In this document: piece by piece, positions 10,390 through 44,041 of the stretch
Position numbering within the stretch: the stretch's first letter is position 1
How the letters are laid out: each line of letters begins with the position of its first letter
NCBI RefSeq assembly: GCF_008831285.2
Contig: NC_045138.2
Span: 13,652,571 to 13,716,570, forward strand
Direction of reading: 5' to 3'
DNA: 64,000 bases
DNA from: Nymphaea colorata
Taxonomy: Eukaryota; Streptophyta; Magnoliopsida; Nymphaeales; Nymphaeaceae
Translations under genes and position numbers: made by a program
The notes under the pieces: generated by a model
What the model was told of the DNA's origin: nothing
Databases searched by the model: none
Seen by the model: the letters and a program-made list of their open reading frames with translations, nothing else

Positions 10390-11685
10390 TGTGACATGTG
10401 ATTCCTTCTCAAACGTCTTTATGAAAGTAAGGCTCTCTTATGCATGTGACTGTTGATGGCGATTTGACCGTATGAGGTTTGTGACTCTGTTACCAGCAAT
10501 CGCAGGTTTGAAGATGATTATTTAACTTAACCGAATAAATTCAGTGTCCTAACAGAAGTAGAAAGTATATTGGATTTTCTAGGGTACACCATCTTCTATA
10601 TTTTGTTTTCTTACATGCATAATAATAATAATAATCTCTATAAACAGATGATTGGTTGGTAGGAGCCAGATACATAAACTTAGAGAGGATGGAACGAGAT
10701 TTTGGGTAGTTGGCCTAAGAATCCAGAAAAGTTTTTGTTAATTGCACCCAAAATGTGAAATTGGGAAAGGAAAATCTGGGAGCACATGTGAAATAAATCT
10801 TCTCATGAAAGCTTTCTCATCTGAATTGGAATTTGACAGCAAACGTGGTAACGTATAAAAAGTGATTACATTGCGAACACATATTAGAGCTGTCGATAAC
10901 TTAAAGGCCAGTCGTAAAACCATGTAGTGCATTTTGCTCATGTTTGTTTGTTAAAAGTTGTTTATGATTTCTTGTCCTTCGCACTCTCTCATTTCAATAG
11001 CAAAGAAATGACTTGTAGGTTGGAAAATATATATAGAGTAATACTTGTCTGTCTTTTTTTTTCCACTAAAGTCTCCTACTTTTAATTGGTAGGCTGAATG
11101 CGACAACTCAATAATATGAAAGAGGCATTGGCTCTATTGGTGGTGGCTTGCTAAATTAGAAGGAAAAAAAAATAGTATCCTTTTCCATACTTTAATTTTG
11201 GCACACATAATTGTCATTGTGTAGTTGAGCAAAATGAAGGAAAAGAAGCAGCTCTAATTTATGTTAGCTTATAGTTTAGATGGTCCATTGAAGGGGCCAA
11301 GGTGAGGCATTGATGCTCATTTATTTACTTTTTAGTCTAAAAATTTATTTTATTAGAAATATCGAAGTTTTTGGGAATAAATTACAAATCCTTGCTCTCT
11401 TTTTTCATTTTTTATTTTTAAAGTCAAGATAAATTTTATTTTGCATCTTTTCAGAAGTTGGGGATGGGCCGTTGGGGAGAGTGGCTGGTTGAAGAATTAA
11501 TAGATGCACTGAATTTTCTCAAGCATGGTCTATTAATTTGTTTGACACTTGCCTTTTGTGTACACAAGTCAAAAAGAGAAAATAAGTATACATGTACGCT
11601 GTATCTAGTGGTGTGTCGATTTCAGTCCAAACTTAAATTGGAGAAATCTGTAAATTCGATATATATAAAAGATTTTCTTTGAGAA

Positions 11686-11744
<59 letters not shown>

Positions 11745-11760
11745 TTTCTCAAGGCCATCC
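10390..11760 (+). repeat. R1 repeat, copy b, inside the left inverted arm
   Basis: This is collinear with the copy at 6,025-7,440 across its length, with small indels, and is mirrored by 26,450-27,860 in the other arm. It ends in a TA dinucleotide run of about 52 bases (11,692-11,743), where the mirror copy has only about 14. Confidence 0.8.
11692..11743. repeat. TA microsatellite
   Basis: Uninterrupted at/ta dinucleotide run at the 3' end of an R1 copy. Corresponding positions in the other R1 copies are at 22,567-22,642 and 43,687-43,722. Confidence 0.95.
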
Positions 11761-12033
11761 CACCTCATTAACACAGCCCAAAAAAAAAGTACATTGGGCT
11801 GAAGTATGTATCATCCCAGCCGCGACATTTTGGGTAGCATATTAAACTGTGTTTTAGACAAAATATTATCCATATAATATGTTTATAACACTAATTTAAC
11901 ATAAATCAAGTTTTAGTCCACGTCATTCTTGTAAAAAATTGATCTTTATACTATCAAAATTTTGATGTTATAAGGGCCGTTTGTTTTTAAAATATTAAAA
12001 AAATATTATTTAAGTAAGAAAACAACTAAGTTA

Positions 12034-13865
12034 ATATCCGGAATTGCTTGAGGCATCACTAGGAGCGGAGGGAGAGGGGGGCACCTGGGCCATGGCCCTA
12101 CCACGGTACATGGAAAAAAAAAATTATAGTTAAAAAATTAAAATTTTTTTGTTTGGCTCAACCCGCCTTGATGTGTTGGCCCTACCCTGTTTTGCCAACC
12201 TCGCCCTCTCTCTCTGGCCCTACCCTGTGTCGCCGGCACCTTCCTCTCTCTCTTGCCTCGCGCCCTCTCTGTCGCTCACTCCTTGAGTCCCTTCCTCTCT
12301 GGCTCACAGCACAGGCCATTGCTGGACCAGCCTTTTCTCTCATGCCCTCTCTCTCTTGCGCCCACTCCCTCACTCGCTCCCTGCCTCTCTGACCCATAGT
12401 GCAGGCGAACGCCGGCCCCGCTCTCTGTCTCGTGCGCTCTCTCTCAATCTCTCACTCGCTCCTTGCCCTGCAGGGGCGGAGGAGACCGCTTGGCCATGGC
12501 CTTACCCCAAAGCATGAAAAAAAAATTATATTTAAAAGATAAAAAACTTTTAGTTTGGCCCAACCTGCCTCGATCCGTTGGTCCTACTTCACTGCCCCTA
12601 CTCTCTCACTCAATTCCAACTTCACTGCTCTTACGGTTGCTATTTTTTTATTGTCACAAACTTGTTACTTAAATAAAATGTAAACCAAAAACACTAATGG
12701 TTAATATGCAGAAGCAATTTAACGATTTTTCCAGCATGTAGATCGATTTTAATTGTATACGTTCTTACTTTTTTAGGTGGTCGTGCAACTCAGTTACCAG
12801 GACGGACGGACAGTCAATGAGACCAAGAACTTCTGGAGCACTCACTTAATAAGAAGCTCATCCAGATGGGCTTCGATCCGATCACGCATCGCCCGAGGGC
12901 GGATCTCTTCAATTGGACTGCCAACTACCAACTGGACAATGCTGCTTGCTCTCTTGCACTTGCTCCTTGGCGGAGCTTTTCAGAGACCAAATAGGCCACA
13001 CCTCTGCTCAGAATGTGCAACTCCCACGAATCCTTGAATAATAACAAGCAGTAATGAGGCTGCACACTCATCAATCCAAAAACTCGGCATCAAAATGTTC
13101 AAACTTGTGCTCCCCTCTTCCCCACGCCGGCGCAACGGAGAACTCGGGTGGCAACAAGGGTGATGCCTAGGGGTGGAGCAGTATTTTTTTCAGTGCAGTC
13201 AAACTGTCCTTGTATACTCACACTTTATATAATATTTGTAAACCACAATATAGTAGAAATGAACATATGTCGTACATAATTGTTCACTTCATGAATGTGA
13301 AATGCGATCTGTCCTACGACACATTTAATAATTACTTGTGTCATTAGCAAAAAACGCGATCTATCCTAAACAGGATATGACCACACATCGAGGCAAGTCG
13401 GGGTAAACTAAAAAATTTTTATTTTTTAAATATATATTTTTTCCATGCTTTGAGGTAGAGCCATGGCCCAAGCAGGTCCCACTTCCCTCTGCCCCTGCTG
13501 GGCAGGGAGGGAGGGAGCGAGTGAGAGAGAGCACATGAGAGAGAGGGCGGGGCTGGCGCTCGCCTGCACTATGGGCCAAAGAAGCTGGGACCGAGGGAGA
13601 GAGTGGGCGCGAGAGAGAGGGCGCAAGGCAAGAGAGAGAGGAAGGGGCTGGTGACATAGGGTAGGGCAGAGAGGGAGGGAGGGAGCCAGTGAGAGGGCGG
13701 GGCCCGGGAAACAGGGAAGGGCCAACACCTCAGGCGGGTTGAGCCAAACTAATTTTTTTTTTTTAAATATAGACTTTTTTTTTTTCCATGCACTGTGGTA
13801 GGGCCATGGCCCAGCGCCCCCCCCTCCCTCCGTCCCCTGGTGATGCCTCAAGCAATTCCGGATAT
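12034..13865. mobile_element. MYB exon 3 fragment bracketed by ~500 bp terminal inverted repeats
   Basis: The outer ends, atatccggaattgcttgagg and its complement cctcaagcaattccggatat, are followed inwards by long CT/GA-rich inverted repeats (about 12,034-12,590 and 13,380-13,865). Between them lies about 780 bp that matches 24,640-25,680, including a decayed R2R3-MYB third exon at 12,777. A gene fragment between long inverted termini resembles a Pack-MULE. I cannot see a 9 bp target-site duplication, and the left terminus is continuous with the left inverted arm, so a purely rearrangement-based origin is also possible. One terminus is also present next to the MYB locus at 25,680-26,160. Confidence 0.55.
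12777..13040 (+). pseudogene. R2R3-MYB exon 3 fragment (locus 1), broken
   Basis: After an acceptor-like ttttag, the sequence reads as the end of a MYB R3 repeat: Trp, then (after a small deletion) Ala-Thr-Gln-Leu, proline and the conserved block with the TVNETKNFW-like stretch, followed by a frame-shifted version of the LIQMGFDP block. Two or more indels break the frame, and about 230 bp present at 24,915-25,145 is missing. Exons 1 and 2 are absent. It matches the exon 3 at 24,803. Confidence 0.75.
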
Positions 13866-14876
13866 GGAGCCGCCCGGATCTAGCCGGAATTCTTACTTGA
13901 CGACGCTTTCATGCAGGAGATCGTTTGAAAGCCTAGCTAGGCGCAAAAATATTTAGTTCCATCCTGCCATACTTCATCCTGAGTCTTTTCCTGTGTACAT
14001 TTTGCTACCATGCGTTTGTTTTCGACGTCATTTAGATCTTCTATGTGCTGATGCTGCATTGCCGAACGTTAGTTTGTATATACTGATAAAAGAGACACAG
14101 ATGATACTGTTTAGCTGGTCTGAGTTAGATTTGAAGCCTGATAATTTCCATCGTATACCTTTCTGTTTCTCTATGAGCAACAAATACATTTTGCTTGCGT
14201 GTTTGTCATCAACCAGAACTATTTTATAATTAAAGTAAGAAATGACAAGAAAATTAAGGTACACATGAATTGGGCCAGCTTCTTAATCATTAAAACTGAA
14301 TTGACAGGGCTTGGTGAGACTAGTCGGTAAAATATATATATGTTGATTATAAATTTGCCGAAATGATCGAACATATTTAAAGAGCCAGTTACGTATAATA
14401 TGTCTTGATTATGTGTAATCCATCAAGAGAAATTGAAACTCGAAAGAAGGTGCGTGGAGGCTTTTGCTGGTAGAGTTTCGCTGTGGATTAATTAGATGAC
14501 AGGGAAAGCAGACGAGGTTGGCAGATGAAGGATCGGAGTTAGGAGCAACTGTGAGGGGGGAGGCGATCGAAGGAGGGGAAACTGGTCCATCCTTGTGGTT
14601 GACTTCACTAGGATCCATGTCAAAAGCATGACGTAGAATGATAGGACAATGATACAACTGGGAAGAAATGCGCACTATAAAGTGAAAATAGAGGATTTCT
14701 CTCTTTCTTTAATAGCGCGTTCGCGATTCTCATCTTTCCTCCCTGTTGGGGGTTTTGTGTTTGGCCATTTTTTTAATAAAAAAAGGCAAAGGGACAGCGC
14801 ATATTTTTCCTCGTGAGCAGTTGAGACCTCTTTGCTTGTGCCTTTTCAAGCAAACGATTGACAGAGGCCGATCTTT

Positions 14877-14909
<33 letters not shown>

Positions 14910-16200
14910 TATGAAAGATAAAAAGTAAAATAAAGAAAATGTTATCGTTTTTTCTCTCAATTATCGGACATGAATGTGTGTGTGCGCGAGAGAGGGAGAA
15001 AGATATGAAAGGTAAAAAGCAAGAAAAATGGTAAACTAATGAAAATGTTATTGTTTTTTCCCTCCACTATTGGACATGATAAATTAAATTGCCCTGATGA
15101 GTAAGTTGAGTAATTTTACTGTTGTTTTCTTTGTACACTAGTCAAAAAGAGAAAATGAGTGTATATGTACATTATATCGAATGGTGTGCCGATGACTGAA
15201 GATTTTCAGTCCAAACTTAGATTGGAGAAATCTGTAAATTTTATATATATATATATGTAGCTAACCTTGATGGAAAAATCTATAAATACTTTATATATTC
15301 ATATAGCCATTAAGGTTTCTATTGCACATGGTTGTTAACATGAGAGGCACTTTCGGGGGCTGAGTTATATTATATATATATAAAGCAGTGGATTCTCAAA
15401 TGCTGCCTCATTAACACAGTCCAAAAAAAAAAAAAAAATATTGGGCTGCGTGTATGAGAGAGATTCCTCTTGCAGCTGCAGGAATCCATGTTATTTATAT
15501 AATAGAAAGAAAAAGTGCGACTGTGTGGGTGAGAGTTGCCGCCACATGTGGTTAAATCCGCCCGCCCTTCTTTTGTTGTTGCCAGAGGTGGAAATGACAA
15601 AAGTACTTGATGGGATGGATGGACCGGTTCAATGGCAGACCGTTAGTTGAAGCATGGGTTTGAGTTGTAATACGTAAGATTTTTTGTATGCAAAGTTTCT
15701 ATGACTATCCATCTTTTCATGCAAACACAGTGCAGCAAAATGTTGCTCCCTTTATTGAGCGTAACAAGAATGAAACGAAAACCATTATCAATGTGATATG
15801 TCTATTATTTTAGTCTTTTTCCATAAAAGTGTCTCATAAATCAACTAGTTTTGAAATAATCAAATATTTGAGATGGTGGTCCATTAGCTCTGTTCTTATG
15901 CATGTCTACACATCTTTTTCTTTCATGTATGGGTCTCTTAGATTTCTTATTCAGTATCATTTTCTTGTTCTTAGATTTAGAATTCCCACATTCATTATCT
16001 TATTCTAGTCCGTTAGATTTCTTACTCAATCAATTTCTTGTTCTTAGGTTTAGAATTCTCACATCCATTATCTTATTCTAAATCAACTCTAAACCTCTGA
16101 TTTGCCTCAGATTTGTGAGGGGAGTTGGAGGGTCATTTATAATGGGCTCAACCATGAACCCGCTTAAGGATGTCAACAGATCCTATTTAGATTGGATATA
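13866..16200. other. Intergenic DNA with an R1 scrap and microsatellites
   Basis: No gene is supported. The frame at 14,409-14,675 (-) has 88 codons but no recognisable domain. A (TA)(GA) tract lies at about 14,877-14,910. At 15,125-15,410 the 3' end of an R1 copy recurs with a short TA run. At 15,590-15,650 there is a block around gatggatggaccggttcaat, also seen at 22,680-22,760 and 43,930-44,010. A short direct repeat at 15,940-16,085 contains two versions of ttagatttcttactcaatca-like text. Confidence 0.5.
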
Positions 16201-16349
16201 TCTTTAATCATATCCGTTTTTTCGAATATTTACATACGAATTTGAATTCGCATAAAGAAAAGTCATATCCGAAAGGCTAAGCAGTGGTGGATGAGGAGAA
16301 CAGAACACAGTGCAACCACAGAACGATGGAAAGAGAGAGCAGGAAGTAC

Positions 16350-16482
16350 CTGCATGTTTGGGGAGTGCCCTCCAACTCCCATGCCCGTGCTTCTGAATGT
16401 AATCGATCAACTTGCTATCCTCCTCGGGTGTCCATGGCCCCTTCCTCAGGCCACTCTCATCACAACAGGGTGACCAGCCCAT
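16350..16482 (-). pseudogene. R2R3-MYB exon 1 only (first copy)
   Basis: The minus strand encodes [20 protein letters not shown] and continues through [20 protein letters not shown] to KHAG, then a good GT donor (gcaggtac). The length of 133 bases is usual for exon 1 of R2R3-MYBs, and the sequence belongs with the MYB92/93/102-like group. Position 3 is Trp instead of the near-invariant Arg (MGRSPCC). There is no exon 2 or 3 downstream (below 16,350), only about 80 bp of intron-like sequence, so it cannot make a MYB protein. It sits head-to-head with IQM copy 1, 336 bp away. Confidence 0.85.
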
Positions 16483-16818
16483 TCTGATCTCTCTCTCTCT
16501 CTCTCTGTCTAATTCTTCTTCTTCTCTACCACATGCAAGAAGCCTCCTGTTGCATCTCCAAAACCAACAAAGAAGCCGCTGTATTTATGCCCTTCTCATG
16601 TCCATGCAACTGTGGCATAATTTCACCCCCACATATTCTTTTAGCTAACCACGAAACTAACTGATGCCACATTTTTGTTTATTCTTTGTGACTACCTGAA
16701 AGGGGAGGGAAGGAAGAGGCAACTTTATCGGCAGTGCGATCGATCGTACCTCCTCCGTCCTTGTGATCTCGCGGTTGCGATATTGACACCTCATCTAGCT
16801 TACACGTGTACTTCTCCA
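16483..16818. promoter_or_regulatory. MYB upstream region now lying between MYB exon 1 (-) and IQM copy 1 (+)
   Basis: The whole stretch up to about 16,811 matches 24,230-24,575, the DNA upstream of another MYB exon 1, including a CT-rich leader and a TATA-like gcataaatac on the minus strand (16,581-16,590), about 100 bp before the MYB start. At about 16,811 similarity switches abruptly to IQM exon 1. IQM copy 1 has therefore lost its own promoter and is joined to the back of a MYB promoter. Whether this drives plus-strand transcription is unknown. Confidence 0.7.
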
Positions 16819-19800
16819 ATGAATGCAGAAGGGAGGCCCATGGACGCTGCCGCATTGAAGGTACAGAAGGTCTACAGGAGTTACAGGACCAGACGTCAGC
16901 TTGCTGCTGTCGTTAGCGGAAACTCATCGAAGGTCTGGTTTTTTTGGTGCTTTTGTTGCGACTTTTTCGTCCTTTGGTGGCCCTTTTGGGTAGTAGCTGA
17001 AAATTAACCCAAATGATCAGTGCAGCAACTCACTGACCCTGCTCACTGGTTGCCTGAAAAAACTGTTTCATTGAAATCTTGATTTTAAAATTGGTTTACT
17101 AAACAGTGACTTTTAGTTATTGTTTTTATGCTCGCTCACGCACTGCGGCACTAGAGAAATTACCAGATTTTGATGCTAAATCAATTCCAAAGATTGGCAC
17201 CACAGACGTCTCTCCCTCTTTTCTCTCCCTGTACCTCTCGGGAGTGGTATATTTGTGTCTCGGAGATTTCTTTTTTATTGTTTTGAGTTTTGACTTGTGT
17301 ATATTCATTTTCAAGTTTCAACGCGGATCAATATTAAAGTATGGGAGCACAGGGAAGAAGTAGTGGTTGTACCTTTTTACTTTGTTTCTTCTTCTCCTTT
17401 TCCTTTTGCTTTATGGGGTTCAACATATTTAAAGGAAGGTTTCTTACAGGTTGGAAAAGGTCTATCCAAAAATGCCAAAGCTCGGAAATTGGCATTCCCG
17501 CATTGGATTGAGGCTGTAAGTCTGTTCTGTTTTTTCCCCGTTTTCATATTTTAATGGTGCAGAGATATATATAAATTGCAATAAGAGAATTTAAATTGGT
17601 AAGCAATTTTTTATTTTACTCAGGTTGATCCTCGTCATCGTTACGGACATAATTTGCATTACTATTATAATGAGTGGTGTAAAAATGAATCGGGTGAACC
17701 TTTCTTCTACTGGTAAGCACCTGAAATTTCAATAATCTTGGCATTATGGATGACTTATGAAAAATATTTCTGATCAAGTGCATGTGCTCTGTTACATATA
17801 CCTCCAGCTGCTATTTTGCAGCTACGTTGTTTTGTTTCAATTACAGCCTTATTGAGCATCTGAAAGAACTCTTCTTCATTGCTGCTTCATCTTGATATAA
17901 TATCTTTTTGTGTGCATGCTCAGCATGTTTGCATGCATCTGCAGATGCAGCATATCTCCTTTAGCTTGGCTGCATGCCATGCTAAGTTACGAAGTGCACC
18001 ATATTGTCATCACACTACATCAGTGATGACCCTTAACTTTTTACTCCTGCAGTACATATTTGTTTTTTTTTCTTTATATATCGTTCAGTTTGTTTAGATT
18101 TCATTAAGGAAGCAATCAAATATGTCCCGCAAGTAGCAAATGGCACGTGTGATCAATATCTACGAATAGTTAAGATTATGTTCGTACTAATAGCTGTTAA
18201 CATGTTAAAGATGCTTTGGAGAGTTCTCTCCTACGTAACTATTATAAATTTACAAGTAATTCAACTCAAAGATGTTATGTGCAAGTTGATGACTTTTTTG
18301 GATACTTTATTTATCGATTTTATTTGTTCTTGTGCAGGCTGGACGTAGGAGGAGGTAGGAATGTCGATATAAAAGAATGCAGAAGGTCATTACTTACGAA
18401 ACAATGTGTCAGATACCTGGGTCCTGTAAGTCCGTGTTTCAAATTGTTTAATTGGCCAACAAAAGTGACAGGAATGAAGTACAGATCTAATTTGGGTTCA
18501 AGAATTCTAAAATTACTCCAGGAAGGATTGAAACATTAGTAAAATGTGGTTAAAATTTGATTAGTAAAAAACTGCGTGGTCTAGGATATGTTTAAAAAGG
18601 AAGGGAGAAATGAGGCTGCATGTTTTTCTGGTGTGAGGTGTTTTTTAAGTTCGAGTAGATATTCTTGAAGGGTGAGGCTTCATAACTGAATGGGATTCCT
18701 TACTCTAGAGATTAAATCATGAGTTCTTTGGCTTTAACCAACAACCAATCAACCTCATGATTCTGTAGGTCTGTCATCACTTTTTTTAATGTCAAATTAA
18801 TAAATGCTTGCTGATATTATGGTCGCATTCTTCTGGAGTTTTAGAGAAGTTTACTACTATGGCTGTGAATTTCTGTCAATGGATGATGCTACTGTACTTA
18901 TTACAAAGTTTCCTGCTACTGATATGTGGCATGGAAACACGCAGTTTGCTATTTATTTTTTAGTTATTGTGTTTTTTTAAATTGGCTTACATGTACAATC
19001 TCTATCTGTTTTTTATTTCAGCAAGAGAGGGAGCTCTATGAATATTCACCGAGGAATGGAAAAATCATACATGTGAAAAGTGGAGAGCTTCTTGACACAA
19101 CAATAGGTCAAGGTCACCCTCGTGCGAAATGGATCTTTGTCATGTGCACCAATAAGAAGCTCTATGCAGGCGTTGTAAACTACTTTATTCATTTATCTTC
19201 AGATTTAGCTATGAAAATTTTCTGGTGTTCTCGTTCTTCTTGTCAACCATTTGACTCTAAAATATTGTAATTTGCCTTGTATTATTGAAGATGTTTTTCA
19301 TGTATCTCCCGATAAGCGTAAGCCTCGTCTATAGCTAAAAGGGATATCGGGAGCTGAAGGCAGTTGCCTATTAGTTTAATAGTCTGTGTCTCCTTTCACA
19401 CGGATAAATTGTTTCCTTGGACATAGAAAGTCTGAAATTGACAATCTACTTAACCTTATAAATCTCATTTTTCTATTAAAAATTTGACTTTTCTATCCGC
19501 CTGTATCTAGAAAAAGAAGGGGGAATTTCATCACTCCAGCTTTCTCGCTGGTGGGGTCACTCTAGCGGCAGGAAGGTTGGCTGCAGAAAATGGTGTGCTC
19601 AAGGTACTTACCTGGAAATCTCGAGAAACACTTCAACTTCAGTCAATGGTTGTAACTTTGTAGGTTTTTTTTAAGAAAATTGAACTATTTGATGCCAACA
19701 ACACTATTTTCTCTACGTTTCTTTACTTTCACAATTTTATTGATGGGCATGCTCTGATTTTAGATATTCTGTAACAACTAACAAGTTTCGTGGGGTGGTA

Positions 19801-20434
19801 GATTTTCCACGTTAGTTTTTTAAAGTTTATCATATAAACCTGCCAAATGCTTGAACATTAGCCTTCAGTATTTGCTTGATGCACTGCACAATGTTTAACT
19901 GAGTGATCTTGTAACCCGACGTTTTTCTTGATCGTTGGAAAGAGAATCTGTCAATTGATAGCTGGGTTAAGTTTTTCAACCAATGCATATTTTTGCAATG
20001 GCGCACATTTATAAGTTATGTTCGGTTTCCTATTTCTTATTGTAACTAATCCTGAATATTTGACTTTTGTTTCAGAAAGTGTCGGCTAAAAGCGGGCACT
20101 ATCGACCCACTGCTGAGAATCTTGATATCTTCTTGGCATTTCTTAGAGAGAACGGTGTGAACCTGGACGAAGTGAAGGTTTGTATTTCTCTTAAACATTT
20201 ATACTTTTCTTTAAAATGTCTAGACATCTGCACACCTTACCTTCTCTTCATATTCAGGTGCGCTTTCCGAGCGATGACAAGTACAATGGGCACAATCCAT
20301 TGTATGCGGAGAAGTTCAGCTGCGAAAACGCAACTGATCAAGAGGCTTATAGCAACGACACAGAAGACCAATCGTCTGATCGCAAACTTCATGATAAAAA
20401 GGTGGTTGAGCGAATCTCAAATTTGACTATATAA
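16819..20434 (+). CDS. IQM-type calmodulin-binding protein, truncated copy 1
   Basis: This is the sister of the gene at 35,585-40,513. Exons by comparison: 16,819-16,932; 17,450-17,515; 17,624-17,712; 18,338-18,425; 19,022-19,174; 19,511-19,603; 20,076-20,177; 20,258-20,434, all with GT-AG borders, giving 293 codons without a break. An in-frame ATG also exists at 16,675. Compared with copy 2 it lacks the first 33 residues, and exons 1 and 2 are fused by an in-frame deletion that removes intron 1 and about 40 residues just after the IQ motif. A TAA at 20,432 removes roughly the last 125 residues. The IQ-like motif ([15 protein letters not shown]) and the core ([30 protein letters not shown]) remain. 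It could be a truncated but translatable protein or a young pseudogene; the replaced promoter favours the latter. Confidence 0.7.
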
Positions 20435-21950
20435 GTGTCCAAAGACAAACAGAGCAAGAAAATGTCAAAGGTAGCTACGAAAGGACTTTGTGAGGGGGCC
20501 TTCGCAGTCCCAAACCAGAGGTTCCTCCAAAGGAGATATTGCAGTGAATCCATTCCAAGAGCAAGGCACAATCATATCAACTTGGGCACCAGCTATCTCT
20601 CAAATGGTGCAGTGGTGTCGGTCCAAGATTTGGATGTGTAGCGGATTATCCGAGGGAGTTGAGGTTCTAGGCTCTGGAATTTGTGAACCATTCCCCTCGT
20701 GTCTCAAGCCCATCTGCTTCATGATCTTTCCCTACTTCTCCACTTTCTACACAGTGCTCAACACCCATTGGGATTTTCAGTTTCCAGTCTATGAAAGTGG
20801 TGCCGCATAAATTTGCAGGACTAAAATCTCTGCATGGTTGGCGATCCGTTGCAATAATGTTCCAACCATCCGTTGGCTCCTCTATTTTGCTCTAAGTTGG
20901 ATAGCTAATAAAGTTGGTAGTACGTTCCTTTGTGCAGAATGGGTGTACGACCTCCCTTGCCCTTTATGTAACGTCTTGATGTTTCCATATTCTCTGATTG
21001 AATGAAAGCTTTAAGCAGCGCTCTCTTTCCTCATCAACAAATTTTGCATCGGTAGCAATTTTCAATATCATGAGATGTAAAGACCCCACCTAAAATTGGT
21101 ATGCGAGATTCCAAACCGTCCAACTACTTTAGCAGTATAGCAAACAGATATATAAACTTGTCAAGATCTCGTAAACAATTCAACAGAAAACTATTTCCAT
21201 GTCCTTTACGTGCATGTGGCTCTTCCGCATGACGCGGTTTATAACGTTTTTTTTTTCTTAATTTGCAAACGGAGTCGAGGTGATCTTTACTACCTTGCAT
21301 GCTGAAATATGGTAATTCAACCTCATCCAACTTCACAGTCAAGGGATTAAGCTCCTAAGCTCCCATCCGGACTGGCTGAGCTGTATAATTGCAACTCTAA
21401 TTGACAAGACAATATACGAAATGAACCATAAGAGTTCTAAGCAAAGTAATTTTGAAAAATGATTCATTTATTCAATTTCGTTTTTGTACAAAATATGGAT
21501 TTGTTGACCAAGGGCCAGGCAGCTTTCAAAACATGCCTTATAAATTCTTCACCTTCTTTCCTGATCCCGAACTGTGATGTTGACCTCCGAGCTCCTTCGA
21601 GTTCCAACCGATGCCTCATTCAACTCGGATTTCAATATAGGATTAGCAGTTAGAGAGGTATGAACTGTAGTTTCAAACAAGTTAGATTTGTATGAGATTT
21701 TTGTCCCCAGATACTGGGGATCTGTTATTACTCAACGTCGACTGTCCCCGTTTACATCCCCGACAAGGATGCATATCTTTAGCTGGGTATGGCAGACTGT
21801 GAATAACTGAACCGGTATATGGTTTGTTCCTGATTCATTTTTCATCGGACTCCAGCGTAGCATCTATCTACGTTACTAGAACCCTTCATCTCATCATCTT
21901 GCATTAAATGCAGAATACTTAGCAGCTTTTCCTGTTCTCGACCAGAATTC
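20435..21950 (+). pseudogene. Decayed IQM copy 1 3' coding part and shared 3' flank
   Basis: After the new stop, sequence matching the last part of copy 2 exon 9 continues to about 20,810 (ending before the equivalent of the copy 2 stop), but with frameshifts. From there to about 21,950 the DNA matches 40,514-41,640, the 3' flank of copy 2. No separate gene is visible; the frame at 20,490-20,810 is the shifted IQM tail. Confidence 0.75.
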
Positions 21951-21989
21951 TTTTCGAAATTGCATGGTGCTGGAAGGCTTGGATGGAAT

Positions 21990-22572
21990 ATGTGGAGGTT
22001 CCGCATGATCTATATTTTAATTTTATCACACATAATAGGCAGACAACTTTAATTTATAGTGTAGTTTACTTGAGCAAAATAGAGAAAAAAAAGTACCTCT
22101 AATTGATTTTAGCTTATAGTCTATATGGTCTATTGAAGGGGCCAAGCTGAGGCATTGATGCTCCTTTGCTTACTTTTAATCTAAAATTCTGAGTGAAAGG
22201 ATCCAAGTTTTTGGGAAGAAATTAGAAATCTCTGCTCTCTCTTTTCATTTTTTGTTTTTAAAGTCAAGATAAATTTTATTTTGCGTCTTTTTGGAAGTTG
22301 GGGGTAGGCCGCTATGACAGTGGCTGGTTGGAGAATTAGCATATGCACTGTTATTATTTCAATTTTCTCAAGCAAGGTTTATTAATTTGTTTGATACTTG
22401 CCTTTTTTGTACACTAGTCAAAAAGAAAAAATGAGTGTACAACAGTACATGTACATTGTATCGAGTGGTGTGCTTATGACGGAAGGTTTTTAATCCAAAC
22501 TTAGATTGGAGAAATATGTAAATTCTATATGTAAAAAGATTTTCAACCTAAACTTGATTGGAGAAATCAGTA

Positions 22573-22646
<74 letters not shown>

Positions 22647-23259: not shown

Positions 23260-23279
23260 TGCATGTGGTAGAGAAGAAG

Positions 23280-23314
<35 letters not shown>

Positions 23315-23319
23315 TCAGA

Positions 23320-23760
23320 ATGGGCAGGTCACCCTGTTGTGATGAGAGTGGCCTGAACAAGGGGCCATGGACACCTGAGGAGGATAGCAAGTTGATCGAT
23401 TACATTCAGAAGCACGGGCATGGGAGTTGGAGGGCACCCCCCAAACATGCAGGAGCTTCCTGCTCTCTCTTTCCATCGTTCTGTGGTTGCACTGTGTTCT
23501 CTTCTCCTCATCCACCAGGAAGCCTCCTGCTTCGCCTTGCAGGAGGTTTCCATAAGAGAATTGTTCAAATTGAAGATAGGAAGAGACATCCAAGTCGTCC
23601 AAGTTTTCTTATGAGATTATTGAGTTCTTTTTCTTGTTTAATTTGACGGGGCTCAACAGATGTGGAAAGAGTTGCAGGTTGAGATGGACAAACTACTTGA
23701 GGCCTGATATCAAGAGTGGAAAGTTCTCCCAAGAGGAAGAACAAACTATAGTTCATCTCA
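23320..23760 (+). pseudogene. R2R3-MYB exons 1-2, left arm (plus strand)
   Basis: Exon 1 is 23,320-23,452 ([20 protein letters not shown] and so on to PPKHAG). The donor is changed from GT to GA (gcaggagc instead of gcaggtac). Exon 2 begins near 23,648 with [20 protein letters not shown] and runs to the QEEEQTI block, after which it diverges. No AG acceptor precedes exon 2; the sequence there is ttgacggggctc. Exon 3 is 1 kb away, behind the inverted arm. It cannot be spliced into a MYB. Confidence 0.85.
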
Positions 23761-23789
23761 CCATGCCCTGTCAATTCAGTTTTAAACAG

Positions 23790-24229
23790 GATATCAGGAT
23801 AGTTTGATCTTCCTCTTGGGAGAACTTTCCACTCTTGATATCAGGCCTCAAGTAGTTTGTCCATCTCAACCTGCAACTCTTTCCACATCTGTTGAGCCCC
23901 GTCAAATTAAACAAGAAGAAGAACCGGATAATCTCATAAGAAAACTTGGACGACATGGATGTCTCTTCTTATCTTCAATTTGATCAATTCTCTTATGGAA
24001 ACCTCCTGCAAGGCGAAGCAGGAGGCTTCCTGGTGGATGGATGAGAAAAGAACACAGTGCGACCACAGAACGATGGAAAGAGAGAGCAGGAAGTACCTGC
24101 ATGTTTGGGGAGTGCCCTCCAACTCCCATGCCCGTGCTTCTGAATGTAATCGATCAACTTGCTATCCTCATCGGGTGTCCATGGCCCCTTCCTCAGGCCA
24201 CTTTCATCACAACAGGGTGACCGGCCCAT
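23790..24229 (-). pseudogene. R2R3-MYB exons 1-2, right arm (minus strand)
   Basis: Exon 1 is 24,229 down to 24,097 ([20 protein letters not shown]...LPKHAG) with an intact GT donor. Exon 2 lies at about 23,900-23,790 ([20 protein letters not shown], then [16 protein letters not shown] and a stop). Exon 2 again lacks an AG acceptor, exactly as in the left arm. The frame stops before the rest of R3, and what follows is the antisense of the left arm. Similarity to the MYB92/93/102-like group (suberin/cutin and stress regulators in other plants) is from recognised family sequence. Confidence 0.85.
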
Positions 24230-24290
24230 TCTGATCTCTCTCTCTCTAATTCTTCTTCTTCTTCTCTACGACATTCTCTACGACATGCAA

Positions 24291-24600
24291 GAAGCCTCCT
24301 GCTGTATCTCCAAAACCAACAAGGAAGCCGCCATATTTATGCCCTTCTCATGTCCATGCAACTGTGGCATAATTTCACCCCCACATATTCTTTTAGCTAA
24401 CCACTGAACTAACTGATGCCACATTTTTGTTTATTCTCTGTGACTACCTGAAAGGGGAGGGAAGGAAGAGGCAGATAATTTATCGGCAGTGCGATCGATC
24501 GTACCTCCTCCGTCCTCGCGATCTCGCCGTCGCGATATTGACGCGTCATCTGGCTTACACGTGTACGGCTGGGATGGGCACGGTCCACACTCTTTTCACG
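24291..24600 (-). promoter_or_regulatory. MYB upstream region with TATA-like box
   Basis: This matches 16,540-16,810 and, in its distal part, 7,421-7,640. On the minus strand, ataaatatgg at 24,331-24,341 lies about 100 bp before the exon 1 ATG and is followed by a CT/GA-rich leader, a plausible core promoter. At 24,605-24,632 a scrap reading caaactatcctgatatcctg repeats the end of the right-arm exon 2 region and marks the rearrangement junction. Confidence 0.6.
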
Positions 24601-24802
24601 TCCTGCAGAACAAACTATCCTGATATCCTGTCTCACACTCAAGTCCAACTTCACTGCTCTTACGGTTGCTAATTTTTTTTTATTGATTGTTACTTAAATA
24701 AAATGTAAACCAAAAGCACTAATGGTTAATATGCAGAAGCAATTTAACGATTTTTTCCAGCATGTAGATCGATTTTAATAGTATACGTTCTTGCTTTTGT
24801 AG

Positions 24803-25340
24803 GTGGTCAGCCATTGCAACTCACCTACCAGGACGGACAGACAATGAGACCAAGAACTTCTGGAGAAGAAGAAGCTCATCCAGATGGGCTTTGATCCGAT
24901 GACTCACCGCCCGAGGACGGATCTTTTCAACAACCACTCCCAGCTGCTTGCCTTGCCCAATCTGACGGTTAATCATCCCATGCTGCCAGGCTGCAAGCAC
25001 AGGCCGCTAACATGGCAAGACTTCAGTATCTCCTCCAATCTGCAGCAGATATGACTAGCAGTACCGTGAGCAATAATATCACAGAGATGGAAGGACACCT
25101 TCTTCATCGAAGCCTTTTCAGATTGATGATCAGGAAGCCATGGGATGGACTGCCAACTACCAATTGGACAATGCTGCTTGCTCTCTTGCACTTGCTCCTT
25201 AGCAGAGCTTTCCAGAGACCAAATAGACCACACCTCTGCTCAGAATATGCAACACCCACCAAACTTTGAATCTTTCAATAATAGCAACCAGGAATTAGGC
25301 TGCACACTCATCAATCCAAAAGACTGGGATGTTCAAACTT
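24803..25340 (+). pseudogene. R2R3-MYB exon 3 (locus 2), frameshifted
   Basis: After an acceptor (ttttgtag) the plus strand reads [20 protein letters not shown], the end of R3, in the correct phase for a MYB exon 3. A deletion of about 10 bases then removes the NTHLKK block and shifts the frame. The next block is [18 protein letters not shown] in another frame, followed by an Asn/Leu-rich stretch. It lies downstream of the left-arm exons 1-2 in the same orientation, so the inverted right arm with its promoter appears to have been inserted into intron 2 of this gene. Confidence 0.85.
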
Positions 25341-25449
25341 CTTCTCCCCTCTTCCCCACGCCGGCCCAGCCGAGAACTCAGCCGGCAACAAGGGTGATGC
25401 CTAAGGACGGAGCCAGTATTTTTTTCAGGAGCAGTCAAACGGTCTTTAT

Positions 25450-25506: not shown

Positions 25507-26449
25507 CATTTTAGATAATATTTGCAAACCACAATATAGTAGAAGTGAACATGTGTCGTATATAATTGTCCACTTCATGAATGTGAAACGCGACTTGTCC
25601 TACGATACATTTAATAATTGCTTGTGTCATTACCACAAAGCACGATATGCCTGAACAGGGTAAGACCAACACATCGAGGCATGCCGGGCCAAACTATTTT
25701 TTTTTATTTTTTTAAATATAATTTTTTTTCCATGCTTTGGTGTACGGCCATGGCCCAAGCGGGCCCCACCTCCCTCCACCCCAGTAGCGCAGGGAAGGAG
25801 CAAGTGAGTGAGAGACAGCACACAAGAGAGAGGGTGAGGCCGGCGCTCGCCTGCACTATGGGCCAGAGGGACTGGGAGCGAGCGAGAAATTGGGTGCGAG
25901 AGAGAGGGCATGAGAGAGAGGGTGGGGCCAGCAATGGCCTGCGTTGTGGGCCAGAGTGGCAGGGACTCATGGAGCAAGCGACAGAAAGGACACGAGGCAA
26001 GAGAGAGGAAGGGGCCGGCGAAACAGGGTAGGGCCAACAAATCAAGGCGGGTTGAGCCAAACTAAAAAAATTTTATTATTTAAATATATATCTTTTTTCC
26101 AAGCGCTATGGTAGGGCCATGGCACAGGCGGCCCCCCTCCCTCCGCCCCTGGTGATGCCTCAAGCAATTCCAGATATTAAGTTAGTTGTTTTCTTAGTTA
26201 AATAATGTTTTTTTAATAGTTTAAAAATGAACCGCCCTTACAACATCAATATTTTGATCGTATAAAGATCAATTTTTTACAAGGATGACCTGGACTAAAA
26301 CATGATTTATGTTAAATTAGTGTTATAAACATATTATATAGATAATATTTTGTTTAAAACACGTTTTAATATGCTACCCAAAAAGTCGCCCCTGGGATGA
26401 TACATACTTCAGCCCTTTTTTTTTTTTTTTTTTTGCTGTGTTAATGAGG

Positions 26450-27860
26450 TGGGATGGCCTTGAGAATCTAGTGCTATATATATATATATAATTTACAGAT
26501 TTCTCAATTGAAAATCTTTTATCTATATAGAATTTACAGATTTCACCAATCTAAGTTTGGACTGAAAATCTTTGGTCCTCAGCACACCACTCGATACAAT
26601 ATACATGTACACTCATTTTCTCTTTTTGACTAATATACAAAAAGGCAAGTGTCAAACAAATTAATAGACCATGCTTTAGAAAATTGAAATAATAATAGTG
26701 TATCTATTAATTCTTCAACTAACCACTCTCCCCATTGGCCAGCCCCCAACTTCCAAAAAGAAGCAATCTTGACTTTAAAAATAAAAAATAAAAAAGGAGA
26801 GTGGGGATTTGTAATTTCCTCCCAAAAACTTTGATCTTTTCAATAAAAAAAATTAAACTAAAAAGTAAGTAAATGAGCATCAATGCCTCATTTTGGCCTC
26901 CTTAATAGACCATCTAGACTATAAGCTAACTTCAATTAGAGCTGCTTTTTTTCTTTTATTTTGCTCAAGTAAACTACACGGTAAACTAAAGTTGCCTAAC
27001 AACAATTATGTGTGTCAGAATTAAAATATGAAAAAGAATGCCTTTTTTTTCCGTTTAATTTAGCAAGCCACTACCGATGGAGTCGATGTCTCATTCATAT
27101 CATCAAGTTGTCGCAGTCAGCCTACAATTAAAAGTAAAAGACTTTAGAAGAAAAAAAAAGAATAAAAAGGGCAACTCAACACTGTTGAAGAATAGGTAAT
27201 CTAGACAAACAAGTATTACTCATTGTATATTTTCCAACCTACAATTTATTTTTTTGCTATTGAAATGAGAGAGTGTGAAGGACAAAAAATCATAAAGTAC
27301 TTTCAACAAACAAACATGAGAAAAATGCACCACATGGTTTTAAGGTTGGCCTTTAAGTTACCGACAGCTCTAATATGTGTCCGCAATGTAATCACTTTTT
27401 ATTTGTTACCACGTTTGTTGTCAAATTCCAATTCAAATGAAGAGGCTATCATGAGTGGATTTATTTCACGTGTGCTCCCAGATTTTTCTTTTCAAATTTG
27501 ACATTTTGTGTGCAATTAACCAAAACTTTTCTGGATTCTTAGGCCAACTACCAAAAATCTCATTCCATCCTCTTAAGTTTATGTATCTAGCTCCTACCAA
27601 CCGATCATTTGTTTATAGAGATTATAATTATTATTATGCATGTAAAAAATCAAAATATAGAAGATGGTGCACCCTAGAAAATCCAATATACTTTCTATTT
27701 CTGTTAGGACACTGAATTTCTTCTGTTAGGTTAACATCTTCAAACCGGTGATTGCTGGTAACAGAGTCACAAGCCTCATACGGTCAAATCGCCATCAATA
27801 GTCACATGCATGAGAGCCTTACTTTCATAAAGATGTTTGCGAAGGAATCACATGTCACAC
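26450..27860 (-). repeat. R1 repeat, copy c, inside the right inverted arm
   Basis: Mirror copy of 10,390-11,760, read on the minus strand. The frame at 27,223-27,501 has counterparts in the other copies (10,738-10,941; 42,631-42,834), but its codons are not conserved in a protein-like way and the copies differ by indels, so I do not call it a gene. Confidence 0.8.
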
Positions 27861-28282
27861 ATTTTGGTTATATAACTCGTGATCTATTTGTCTCCAGTGG
27901 CGAGAGGCGCCTAAAAAAATCGTACAACTTCAAAAATGTAGTGGTCAAAGCAAAGGTGTAATGTCATAATCACCCCAAAACAGATCACATGCTTTTGGTC
28001 GTTCTTATTCATTCTCTCCTCATCAATGCAAAAAACAAAGAAAAATGATTCACGTTATTAGTGATGTATGAAAGAATTCTTGTTTGTCAGATAGAATTCA
28101 AAATTAAAAAGAAAAAATAAATTAAGTTCATACAACACAAATGCTGATTGGAATTAGTTGAAGCAAATCACAATTGCCGAGTATGGATTAAGAGAGGGAG
28201 AAAAAAAAGAGTTAACCCAGTTTGTTTTTTTTTTTATGAGTTGATGATCGACTAGTTGAGATTCAGGCATTTTTAAGGTCAA

Positions 28283-28490
28283 TGTTCAAGCTAGTAGATC
28301 TCAACGTCTTCGTCAAGGGTCATTTGGCAATAAAGATACATTGTAAATGTCTCATGAATGTGTCTCAACGAATGAATCAGGTTCATGGGATAATTAAACA
28401 TGAACTTACTCATTCGTTCGGACAGATTCACGAGACATTGACAAAGTATTTCTGTTGCCAAACAACCTTTCAAGTTTCAAGATATAACTA
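28283..28490. repeat. Imperfect hairpin, right-arm copy
   Basis: Mirror of 9,770-9,970, with the same complementary halves around ctcatgaatgtgtctcaacg. MITE-like. Confidence 0.6.
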
Positions 28491-29915
28491 ATTAAGTCAT
28501 TTTGATTTATATGTACATTGAACTTTATTTTTGGCCAGCCAGTACTCCAATACACTTGGATGCAAAAATGAGATAGGACTATCCTGATCAAATATTATTG
28601 GTACGGATCGAGATGTTGGCTAGGTTTGACCAGACTGAGTTATGTCGCTGTAGTCATTGCTTGGTTTGACCGAGCAGGCTGGCTAGGAAGGCAAGGACAT
28701 TAGAAAGTAGCTACACTGTCTGTTTCTTCCCCTCTTTCTCTATAATTCGCTTATTTATAGGGTGTTTAAAGGGAGTAGTTGTTCATTCATGCTTTTTCTT
28801 TAGTGGGTTCCATGAGCTCCCCGAGTATCTATGATCATACGTTGAGGTCGCATCATTTCAATCAGACCCCATGTCTTTGAGGTTTAAAAATATGAAAATT
28901 TAATTGATTTTGTGAGGATAAGATACCTACGTTTCAGTTAAAAGTATATGATTTTAGAACTTGTTGTCTGCGAGGAAATAAAATAAGGTTCCATGAATTG
29001 AAAAAACACATTGGTTATGACAAGACAAATTTCTGAAATAGGCTGGTGCTCTAAACCATTAATTTTGGTATCAGGATGTTCTTATGATATATTTTCATGA
29101 ATAAAGATTCGGTGATTTAACAATCACTTGGCCTGTCAGGCAGTAAAATACATTAATGCTTCTCTAATAGAAAAGAAAGTCGAATGCAATCCATGTTCCA
29201 ATTCAGAAAATTCTAGAAGAAACGCAGTTTGTCGCCTTCATGTAAAATTTTTTGGGATGCTACCTTTTATCAAGTAGGATTGTCCACTGAGAACCTGTTC
29301 TAGTTTTTCTGGTGGGATATTTTATCTGAAATAAGCTATTCAGTGCAACCTGTCTCGGATAAGTTGCCAGTGCATGCAAACACTCTCATCAATCTCGATC
29401 CACATCCGGACGTGCAAATGGATGTCAGCGCACATTAGTCTCGTGTTCTTTTGGAAAAGAAAAATTAGGCTTCTGTCCCCCGATTTGGATTTTATTGTTT
29501 GTCTCCTCCGTTGTTGTCCCATGAGTGTGATGGCGACGAAAAAGAACAATTTTACCCATCACGCCAGAATGTTCTTTCCGCATTAATACTGAAAGCTCAT
29601 AACGTTCTTTTTTTTTTTTTTTCTTTCATTGCAGTCTCCGGAAGTTTCCTCTTCCTCATTAGACTTATCTATATACGGAACCCATATCACTTACGTGTTT
29701 GATAAGATAAAAATAACAATTTCTGTTTCAAGTAACAAAGACAAGAAGTACAGAATTGGTATAAAATTCATGTACGTCCAATATACGAATGTTGGCTATA
29801 ACTAACCTATTTTTTTAACTTCAATAAGCACCAAGATTCAACAAGCTAATATTTTCAAAATCATTTTTGAATATCTAAGTAGAAACCTAGTGGACATTCA
29901 CCATGTGGTTCCTAA

Positions 29916-30034
29916 GGATACGTTTTGCCTTTCTAGTTTTAATTGATTCTTAGGCAAAACGTATCTTTAATAGAGAAAGGATACATTACATTCTGCCTAA
30001 GAATTAGTTGAAACTGGAAAGGCAAAACGTATCC
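29916..30034. repeat. Short hairpin, right-arm copy
   Basis: Mirror of 8,108-8,226. Stem ends ggatacgttttgcc and its complement are intact in both copies. Confidence 0.7.
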
Positions 30035-30492
30035 GTTTCTCTATTAAGGATGGTTTGCAGAGCCATCTGCAATCTTCACTATCAGTTTGGGTCTAAATCA
30101 GAGTGAAACCAAACTTATTTAGTCGCCTTTGGTAGACAAACTTGCAAACCCAAATCCCACCCTTCTAACAATCAGATCATGTTTTGCCTTTTAATGCAAA
30201 TCCAAAACTCATGAAGGTGATCTTCTGTCTTAGTTTGGATCCAACGACGCGATCATAGTCCCATGCATCTCCCCCAATTGTTATCCGGTACAATCTTATC
30301 TTGAATCTATTTTAAATTATTGATCCAAACCTAATAATGCAATACAGATGGATACAGACCCACCGATGTCACAATCAGCATCCACAATTCCTCAAAGTCG
30401 CCTGGACCAGCAAGAGGCCTGAGATAAGGACAGTCTTCTTCCCCCATCCATGATATTGATCGGCACAGAAAATTTTAGTTTAACTTATATAA

Positions 30493-33400
30493 AAATTAAA
30501 AAAAAAAAGCCCCCTGCAACAAAATTTTTTTTAGTTGTGACCTTGCTTTTACTTTTACTTTTACTTTACCTGGCCTCAGCGCTCCTCCTCCATCCATATT
30601 GTGACTTGGTCATTGATCATACTGACTAATTTAAGTTGGCATCTGTAACCCGAGTCCTTGCACATTGAGTACTTGCAACACACTATTGAAAATTCCTCCC
30701 CGTGACGAGCTACTAAGGTCGCTGATTCAAGTCCTTGATGAGACAAGTTGATGCGAAGTTGACATAAATGTCACATATACTTTTTCTTTTTCTTAACTGA
30801 GTTTGCTCCTTCAAATGAATGTTACGTACTAGACAAGTAATATCCTAGCTAGACCGATCTAATAACTTAAAAACAAGCAATGGGTTTGCCTGACTTTAAT
30901 ATATTGTGTTCTGAATAAATATCATTTTTTGTAGACCACGCTTCGGTCTACAGGAAGTATGGACCATTGACCGTCAAAATCTTCTGTGGTATATGGATGA
31001 CCAGCAAAAGTTTCTACGGCGAATAATATTATTGCTAATTATATAGACGTGATCTTAAATTTTTTACTAAATTTACGTCAAATGTGTACATACTTTCTGG
31101 ATACGTAAGATGAATTCTACACTTTAAAAAAAATGAAATGACCGTATGTAAATTATTATTTGCTTCCTGAAAAAATCAATTTAACGTGACCGTTGCGTTA
31201 TTGCTTAAAGAAAACAGTGAACAGCTCTACAATACATAACATAACTCTGCAAATGGGCAACTTGCATGCAACCTGTGGACAATTTAGGATTCATAAAATA
31301 AATTGTATGCAACACATAACAAGAACAAAACCAAACTAATCAGAATCATTTGATCGTTCATATCACCCTTCCATGCCCCCTTATTGTCTTCCTTGCAAAC
31401 ATTATCTAAATTTACAAAAAATTATGTAAATCTCCCTGATTTACAGTAAAATCCAGGGCCATCACACGGGCCCTAATGTTGATCTCACCTGAATATACAA
31501 TCCTCATCTGTAGATTTATCTCTCATCTGATCTCATTTATAATTGCATTATAATGAGCTAGCTAAGCGTGCATTGTACAAGATTAGGTGGGAAAAAAAAT
31601 AAACAAAACTTTGTTTGGTGAGAGATGTGGATCCAAGCATGTTTTCCAAATGAAAGTAATCAAACGGACTTTCGTCATCACATTAATTATTTTCTAGTTA
31701 CGAAGCTTTCCTTTGATGACGACCGATTGTTGCTATGTGATTGCAGAAGGTCAGTAGTAGTACCTATAGGAATCAAACTGACAACACACCAACAAGAGCA
31801 AAAGCGAAGCCAAATTTTTATTTCTATAAAGCATTAAATACATGGTTAACAAAATTTTCATTGACCATGAACCAATCTGGTGAGGCCGCCCCTGCACCAT
31901 CTATATGCCAATCGGCATATCTACTTTGGGCTAAGCAAAAGCAATTAGAAGTTGGATGAAGGGGTAAAATCAGCTGATGGGCACTAGTTAAGAAAATATA
32001 ATTATAAAAGACAAGGTTCGTGGTTCGGTCTATTATTTATTTTGGATCAACCGCCTGACCGCTAGCTGTTTGTCGTACCTACGTTGGTCCATTGAAAGGG
32101 AAGGAGGGCTCACATGGCTCTCTCCCTTTCTCTAGGGAAATTACGAGGCGAATGCAGCAGCTTGTTTGTGCCTACACACTTCCTCCTTCAACAGCCAAAT
32201 TTGAACCAAGGTGGACAAATTTTTGAGTCAAGGTCAACACTTTATCATCAGTTTTAGAGAGAAGAGTTTTTTTCCACATGGGCTTTTCTTGACTCACCTT
32301 CAGGCTCCAACCACAATTTTATTATAAATTAAGAAGTAAGAACATCTCTCTTCCTCTCTCTCTCTCTACAGATTCGTTCTCTTTTATAATAGTGGTTGTG
32401 TTAAATTATAGTAAAGAATAGGACCGGCCAGTCAATCTAGAATTTAGAAAAAATGCAATCTAAGTAACACTGACACGGCTGGAAGGCCGGCGTAACCATG
32501 TGAACACACCTACCTAACCCATTTGTGGAATTTTGCATGCTTTCTTCGAAATTTACATTTTTTTAATTTTTTATGTTTTTGAATTTTACATATTTTTATT
32601 CGAATTTTTATATATTTCTTGCAAACCTTTTAAAATGACCCTACCAATACTATATCTTATATGGAAACAAAAAGCATTCACTCTCTCGGCAGACCCTGGT
32701 GGTTTGATTTAATATATTCGTGCGTGCCACTGTTGTTGGAGAGGTTAGCCTGTCCATTGCTTTCATAAAAACCAATAAATGCACTCATCCTCATAAAACT
32801 TCCTCCGTGGTTGGCATTTATGATTTCCACTTTCATATACATCTTCTCTGTTGTTCTATTACTTGACAACTGCTGAAGAAATTAATAGCACATGCTGCAT
32901 CCGAAAATGGGAACGTTTAATTGGCTCTATTTAATTCTCACACCAATCTCTCTCAAGCAGCCCACCCACACTACTAAAGGCACAAAACAAAACTTATTTG
33001 TGCTTTAAGAAAAAAAAAAATGAAGACAAAAAGAGTGGGTATTTCTAATTCCTTCCCCAAAAGTTCGGTTTTTTTAACTCTCAACTTTTTAGACTGAAAA
33101 TAAGTAAGGGGGGTCATTGCCTCAAGTCACCTTGTGCTTTATAATAGACCACGAATGTCATAAGCTCCGGCGTGTGCATTTTTCTGGTGGGTGGGCTCAA
33201 GTGATGTACACTTGTTCAAAAACTAAAGTTGCTTGTGCCGACGGTGGTGCTAAAATATAGATAATGGCAGATAGAGTTAGTGGTTGGCTAAAAAGCCTCC
33301 ACCTGTTCCATCAAAGGCTTCCAGTATCATCACTAGGACGCAATTTTGAAGAGAAAATAAATGTTCTTCCTACATAAGTTTGCAGACCACGCTGAACTCA

Positions 33401-43870: not shown

Positions 43871-44041
43871 GTGTGGGGGTGAGAGTTGGCGCCATGTGTG
43901 GTTGAATCTTCCCTCCCTTCTTTTCTTGTTGCATGAGGCGGAACCGACGAAAGTCTTTGGATGGAATGGATGAACAGGTTCAATGGCAGACACTAGCATC
44001 TGCCAGTATTTTGAGTTGTAGAAAAGTGGCTAGTTTTCAGC

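Follow-up and report, generated by a model that had tools for sequence, protein, structure and literature searches.

The 64-kb window (the whole stretch of DNA analysed here), which from its genes appears to be plant nuclear DNA, contains a decayed R2R3-MYB gene that carries an inverted partial copy of itself, complete with a promoter-like upstream region. We consider it probable that this locus is a relic, whose influence on intact MYB genes is most likely slight or absent. Its origin would be accounted for by local duplication with inverted joining, in a neighbourhood with repeated events of this type. The structure is real and non-trivial, and of a structural kind that is already known. The locus is best described as a structurally silencing-competent relic. 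Silencing is possible, but the observations agree at least as well with a relic lying in a much-rearranged cluster.

Anatomy of the MYB inverted repeat

The repeat comprises exon 1, intron 1 and most of exon 2 of an R2R3-MYB gene, arranged tail to tail:

23260-23749, plus strand: left arm, with the end of the 5'UTR, exon 1, intron 1 and exon 2 up to the limit of the repeat
23320-23452, plus strand: MYB exon 1 of the left arm
23453-23649, plus strand: intron 1 of the left arm, with donor GT changed to GA and acceptor AG changed to GG
23650-23749, plus strand: repeated part of exon 2 in the left arm
23750-23798: loop, 49 nt
24290-23799, minus strand: right arm, with 5'UTR, exon 1, intron 1 and exon 2
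24229-24097, minus strand: exon 1 of the right arm
24096-23899, minus strand: intron 1 of the right arm, with donor GT intact and acceptor GG like the left arm
23898-23799, minus strand: exon 2 of the right arm

A sequence-only reading of this DNA had proposed two tail-to-tail MYB arms around a 49-nt loop, with few differences along the exons and the intron, and we recovered both features. Across exon 1, intron 1 and exon 2, 20 of 430 aligned positions are mismatched and there is 1 gap (exon 1, 7/133; intron 1, 12/197 plus the gap; exon 2, 1/100). A further 4 mismatches and 12 gap columns fall in the (GA)n stretch of the 5'UTR. The three longest uninterrupted matches between the arms measure 110, 58 and 55 nt; of the left arm's 462 distinct 21-mers, the right arm contains 182. 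When the whole window (39% G+C) was scanned in overlapping 1.1-kb tiles with 500-base steps and AT-rich words excluded, only two tiles, both on the MYB locus, contained inverted words matching exactly over 100 nt, which was the upper limit of the sizes tested; the runners-up, the tiles starting at 44001 and 44501, got no further than 30.

The ~490 bp hairpin geometry put forward earlier also proved right. Between 24300 and 23255, the minus strand is predicted to form a single long stem of -885 kcal/mol. The shuffle control covered the innermost 251 nt, whose predicted fold of -199.5 was equalled by 0 of 200 shuffles (mean -67.4, z -27). The inverted repeat and its hairpin-forming sequence are far beyond chance. 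With long near-complementary arms, a short loop and one potential transcript, the locus has the structural make-up of a hairpin-RNA locus.

The MYB assignment comes from several searches. Pfam Myb_DNA-binding or Myb_DNA-bind_6 scored above the curated cut-off on exons 1 and 2, the parts scanned, in both arms, and a PDB search with exon 1 returned 13 sequences, all of them MYB-type or snRNA-activating complex subunit 4. Furthermore, tblastn with a typed MYB consensus placed exons 1, 2 and 3 in order on the plus strand which, together with the Pfam matches, identifies an R2R3-MYB pseudogene. Its putative subgroup is MYB92/93/102-like.

The right arm forms part of an inverted insert, beyond which the plus-strand gene resumes:

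23750-24606, minus strand: complete inverted insert of 857 bp, which separates exon 2 of the plus-strand MYB from what remains of its intron 2 and exon 3
23738-23749, plus strand: copy 1 of the 12-bp direct repeat AGAACAAACTAT flanking the insert
24607-24618, plus strand: copy 2 of the 12-bp repeat AGAACAAACTAT, continuing into CAAACTATCCTGATATCCTGT
24631-25420, plus strand: intron 2 remnant and exon 3, with the acceptor AG at 24801-24802 and the exon from 24803

The insert begins with the short loop stretch, followed by inverted exon 2, intron 1, exon 1, 5'UTR and ~280 bp of upstream sequence. With exon 3 downstream on the plus strand, a single MYB copy can be recognised, whose 5' half is the left arm and whose 3' half is the sequence from 24607 onward. 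Exon 3 starts ~1 kb from the exon 2 of the left arm, is frameshifted past NETKNFW and has stops further on. The earlier statement that no MYB protein can be made was correct in that neither arm encodes a whole MYB, but exon 3 is not out of reach as had been claimed. The structure is an inverted partial copy with its upstream region, inserted at the exon 2/intron 2 border of a decayed MYB.

The 12-bp AGAACAAACTAT occurs twice in the whole window, only at these two flanks. The 21 bases of CAAACTATCCTGATATCCTGT are found at 24611-24631 on the plus strand and inverted at 23806-23786, the latter being the transition from right-arm exon 2 to the loop. Within the loop, 23756-23785 matches 14319-14290 (30 bp, 96.7%), and 23775-23810, which covers loop and the first right-arm bases, matches 24642-24607 (36 bp, 86%). 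The 30-bp match at 14290-14319 sits apart from the other MYB pieces.

A 12-bp direct repeat on both sides of an insert could be a target-site duplication, with the 857-bp segment having arrived as the cargo of a transposable element, Mutator-like or otherwise. Target duplications of Mutator-like elements are typically about 9-11 bp. However, inspection by eye of the insert ends, AGTTCATCTC... and ...CGTCCTGC, revealed no terminal inverted repeats, and part of the loop is a piece that occurs elsewhere in the window. In addition, the second 12-mer is exon-2 sequence running toward intron 2, so that repair with template switching explains the repeat equally well. We regard transposon capture as very improbable.

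Palindromes are a known trouble spot in assembly, and the arms might have been wrongly joined through a fold-back read or head-on haplotypes. Such a fold-back would yield near-identical arms and mirrored flanks, which makes an artefact unlikely at the MYB repeat: its arms differ at the 20 positions given above as well as in (GA)n length, and they carry private lesions. Beyond the right arm comes that arm's own upstream region, followed by exon 3 on the plus strand, and at 16.3-16.8 kb exon 1 of the right arm and the upstream region are present once more, as a separate copy. We see hardly any chance that the palindrome is an assembly error.

Decay of the source gene and rearrangement of its neighbourhood

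The acceptor of intron 1 has been lost in both arms (GACGG|GG, with GG replacing AG). The donor is missing only from the left arm (GA for GT), while the right arm and a third copy of this region retain GT; the left arm also has P for L, another of the changes private to one arm. In the R2R3-MYB consensus, exon 2 presumably ends ...EEQTILHLHAILGNK ahead of intron 2. Both the exon-2 end of the right arm and the flank at 24607 diverge immediately past QTIL from this end, an ancestral state inferred from the family consensus rather than from an intact gene of the species. Lesions common to the arms and the flank suggest that, barring later conversion between the arms, the copied gene was inactive before the repeat formed, and thus that the source MYB was probably dead already when it was duplicated. 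Gene conversion between the arms could also account for the shared acceptor loss. Exon 2 is the part most alike (1/100 differences compared to 19/330 elsewhere, p 0.056), which is suggestive only of conversion there.

Exons and intron differ between the arms to a similar extent (8/233 and 12/197, p 0.25), as would be expected for sequence without coding constraint, and these counts give no sign of selection on the arms. We counted 13 transitions and 14 transversions in one alignment and 11 and 13 in another, with the 5'UTR included. No intact MYB copy was found in the 64-kb window by tblastn; the other MYB pieces relevant here are as follows:

24291-24566, minus strand: upstream, promoter-like region of the right arm, 93% like 16538-16811
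16285-16811, minus strand: third copy, with exon 1 (16482-16350), the 5' end of intron 1 and a counterpart of that upstream region
12602-12912, plus strand: second intron 2/exon 3 remnant, 85% to 24631-24930
7424-7621, minus strand: fourth remnant, upstream region only, in two pieces 87-88% to parts of 24409-24543

The upstream region of the right arm contains a TATA-like box, ATAAATA at 24340-24334 on the minus strand, that points through both arms, in agreement with the sequence-only reading. CACGTG lies in the same region at 24563-24558 on the minus strand. Both motifs are also present in the third copy, whose upstream region is 93% identical over 277 columns; blastn found no counterpart of the region in front of the left arm. 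Over exon 1, the start of intron 1 and the upstream region, the third copy is 92% like the right arm across 537 columns. It differs by 4.0% from the left arm (5'UTR, exon 1 and intron 1) and by 4.4% from the right arm plus upstream region, and these similar divergences suggest that the three MYB copies are of roughly equal age. A bacterial promoter/terminator scan of the upstream region was disregarded as not meaningful in a plant. We also dropped, as too weak, a candidate left-arm remnant beside the third copy at 16120-16132, a 13-bp exact match resembling the end of exon 1; its score was equalled in 2 of 200 mononucleotide shuffles, and on the other strand in 65 of 200.

At 16811 the third copy adjoins a copy of an IQ-motif gene, which we take to be IQM-like, starting ATGAATGCAGAAGG (16819, ATG). 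In the homologue near 35.7 kb, where the Pfam IQ motif falls just below its cut-off (18.8 against 20.3), in-frame sequence continues further upstream, and the copy at 16819 seems to be without its 5' end. This first IQ gene copy stands head-to-head with the MYB upstream fragment, a possible promoter swap.

Judged by sequence similarity, local inverted duplication has occurred several times in this neighbourhood, with events of mixed age. Among the repeats in the window are:

7635-9078 against 30494-29053: inverted pair, 2.2% different
9086-12587 against 29115-25660: inverted pair, 9.6% different
12034-12574 against 13387-13865: inverted pair, 72%, spacer 813 nt
17906-21942 against 37668-41640: direct repeat of the IQ-gene neighbourhood, 8.1% different
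44056-44193 and 45151-45288: inverted pair
49965-50313 against 50920-51289: inverted pair

Together, 7635-12587 and 25660-30494 form a large inverted duplication with ~13 kb between its arms. The low divergence of its outer end (2.2%) relative to its inner part (9.6%) suggests that these arms are mixed in age or partly converted, and by divergence the 7635-9078/30494-29053 pair would be younger than the MYB repeat. Among the 25 of 76 pairs listed, 7880-8479/29663-30262 has arms that are longer and more alike (600 nt, 99%) than those of the MYB pair. The MYB pair has the shortest spacer among the long inverted pairs listed, 49 nt, the next being 607.

Other features of the window are observed alongside these pairs. 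The neighbourhood of the IQ-motif gene is present in two direct copies, 16812-21942 and about 35680-41640. The arms at 12034-12574 and 13387-13865 enclose the second MYB exon-3 remnant. An old inverted gene pair, 47061-50313 and 50920-54539, is 72-81% alike; near its centre, an aldo/keto reductase match lies above the Pfam cut-off at 50870-51298 on the plus strand, with another just below it at 49932-50402 on the minus strand. A segment of ~1.4 kb has four longer copies in both orientations (6015-7420, 10387-11742, 26451-27862 and 42506-43698) and two partial ones (partly 21947-22591 and 15127-15399). Pfam searches of 20 segments matched MYB in 4, IQ in 1 (below cut-off) and aldo/keto reductase in 2 (one above cut-off), and 13 of the 20 had no match. 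The other inverted duplications, together with exon 3, the probably already dead source and the third copy, had been missed by the sequence-only reading.

Silencing potential of the hairpin

The retained promoter of the right arm may drive a leftward transcript through the right arm, the loop and the left arm. This transcript would fold back as a ~490-bp imperfect hairpin, which Dicer-like enzymes would process into 21-24-nt siRNAs; long hairpins of this kind are handled by DCL2/3/4. The siRNAs would mainly target the arms themselves and very similar MYB copies. We put the chance that small RNAs from the locus are detectable in some tissue at a little short of even, and consider it distinctly unlikely that they measurably repress an intact gene. 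No Rfam family reached its gathering score in the window, and the ~490-bp stem pairs almost throughout, so we do not class the locus as a MIRNA gene. The window also has no tRNAs.

To gauge targeting, the exon 1 of the third copy was used as a proxy for a close target. All 112 of the right-arm exon-1 21-mers match it with at most 2 mismatches (64 with none), as do 110 of the 113 from the left arm (51 with none). At a uniform divergence of 15-20%, a binomial estimate leaves only 37-18% of 21-mers with at most 2 mismatches, so that paralogs in general would be poorer targets than the sequence-only reading had proposed. Close relatives are likely to be the only safe guesses for targets in trans.

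These counts bear on the possibility that the locus actively silences, with the right-arm promoter producing a hairpin RNA and the resulting siRNAs acting in trans to repress the parent gene or its close paralogs. The near-complete matching of both arms to the third copy is in line with this, as is the 93% identity of the upstream region in two copies. Trans repression has been proposed for two loci of comparable form, of GmIRCHS on CHS and of inverted ARR17 fragments on ARR17 (PMC13051633, PMC9636151); the MYB locus shares with the first the tail-to-tail pseudogene architecture with a short spacer, and with the second, from poplar, partial-gene inverted fragments amid palindromes. However, the steep loss of usable 21-mers at 15-20% divergence and the arms without sign of selection argue against it, and we find active silencing rather unlikely. 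We give still less credence to a newborn trans-silencing locus, in which the promoter-bearing inverted copy has made the MYB pseudogene into a hairpin gene tuning an intact MYB of the same subgroup. If true, this would be the inverted-duplication model caught before miRNA maturation, amid ARR17-like palindromic duplications.

Self-methylation through 24-nt siRNAs is a common fate of long plant inverted repeats. The MYB repeat could likewise be silenced in cis, with Pol IV or Pol II transcripts processed mostly to 24-nt siRNAs that direct methylation back to the locus and have no effect in trans. In Populus euphratica, 24-nt reads make up more than 75% of those mapping to the inverted ARR17 segments (PMC9636151). 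The CpG observed/expected ratio is low in the arms, 0.23 in the left and 0.46 in the right compared to 0.64 for the window, and could be taken as a further sign of such methylation. However, the exon-1 stretch of the third copy, which lies outside any hairpin, is as CpG-poor (0.28) as those of the left and right arms (0.21 and 0.43). The depletion is thus older than the hairpin or a property of coding sequence, and we rejected it as a scar of hairpin-directed methylation. The differences between the arms are also not transition-rich. Overall, we consider silencing in cis unlikely, and the probability we assign to the relic reading overlaps with that of silencing in cis; both share the same anatomy and origin. 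The CpG ratio of the upstream region is near random (0.96 in the right-arm copy, 0.78 in the third copy), as might be seen in an unmethylated promoter that was active until recently, and this counts mildly against a dead relic.

We still prefer to regard the locus as a relic that affects intact MYBs little, if at all, and it is informative in either case. If small RNAs are made, it would be a clear, datable instance of a regulator pseudogene turning into a hairpin-RNA gene with its own promoter, for which the un-hairpinned sister copy of exon 1 and upstream region, 7.7 kb away, is a built-in control. If none are made, the locus would be a useful negative, indicating that geometry and a promoter alone are insufficient for a silencing locus. 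Either way, repeated local inverted duplication provides the raw material, as the window shows.

Comparison with known systems

Judged by analogy, the MYB locus resembles GmIRCHS, ARR17, MIR163, NIP6-1, IR71 and SULF in form only. The literature matches listed include no naturally occurring MYB hairpin comparable to this one. The likeness to natural silencing loci claimed from sequence does hold in form for GmIRCHS, the candidate for the soybean I allele, a tail-to-tail inverted repeat of pseudoCHS3 that is 1,087 bp long, with the copies 78 bp apart (PMC13051633). It lies behind a DnaJ gene promoter; CHS dsRNA derived from it is found in seed coats, and pigment returns when deletions take it away (PMC13051633). 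From this description, both loci are tail-to-tail repeats of a pseudogene from a multi-copy family, with a short spacer, in a region prone to structural change. The spacer is 49 bp at the MYB locus compared to 78 bp, and the arms ~490 bp compared to 1,087 bp. In contrast to the DnaJ promoter of GmIRCHS, the MYB locus has a promoter-like upstream region that is the MYB gene's own.

The inverted ARR17 fragments of P. euphratica lie in a sex-linked region with palindromic surroundings, and reads from these segments have been linked to male-biased methylation of intact ARR17 (PMC9636151). As described there, this system and the MYB locus share partial copies of a regulator gene, an inverted pair able to form a hairpin, palindromic arms and relaxed constraint. 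However, 24-nt reads, target methylation and sex linkage are reported for ARR17, whereas the MYB locus is a finding in genomic DNA.

Two further endogenous inverted repeats are also related in form. The soybean aquaporin NIP6-1 inverted repeat on Gm14 has a length of 621 bp, with ~400 distinct small RNAs within or near it (PMC3534067); it is gene-derived and similar in arm length to the MYB repeat, but its spacer is ~1,000 nt and its small RNAs were sequenced. Arabidopsis IR71, also a long endogenous inverted repeat and the model for such processing, is described as a Dicer-like substrate yielding mainly 22- and 24-nt siRNAs and some of 21 nt (PMC12825306), but from a dsRNA of ~3 kb and with small RNAs that were sequenced. 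SULF of Antirrhinum likewise originated by inverted duplication (PMC9750854).

The comparison with MIR163 concerns the birth of miRNA genes. Fahlgren et al. describe young MIRNA loci that arose by inverted gene duplication, and computational evidence given there indicates that the origin of MIR163 duplicated the source promoter as well; drift and death are perhaps the commonest fate (PMC1790633). Like MIR163 as described, the MYB locus is an inverted duplication of a coding gene that carries the promoter of its gene of origin. In contrast to the discrete miRNA produced there, the MYB stem is far longer and nearly perfect, which would place the locus at most at an early, siRNA-like stage of MIRNA birth.
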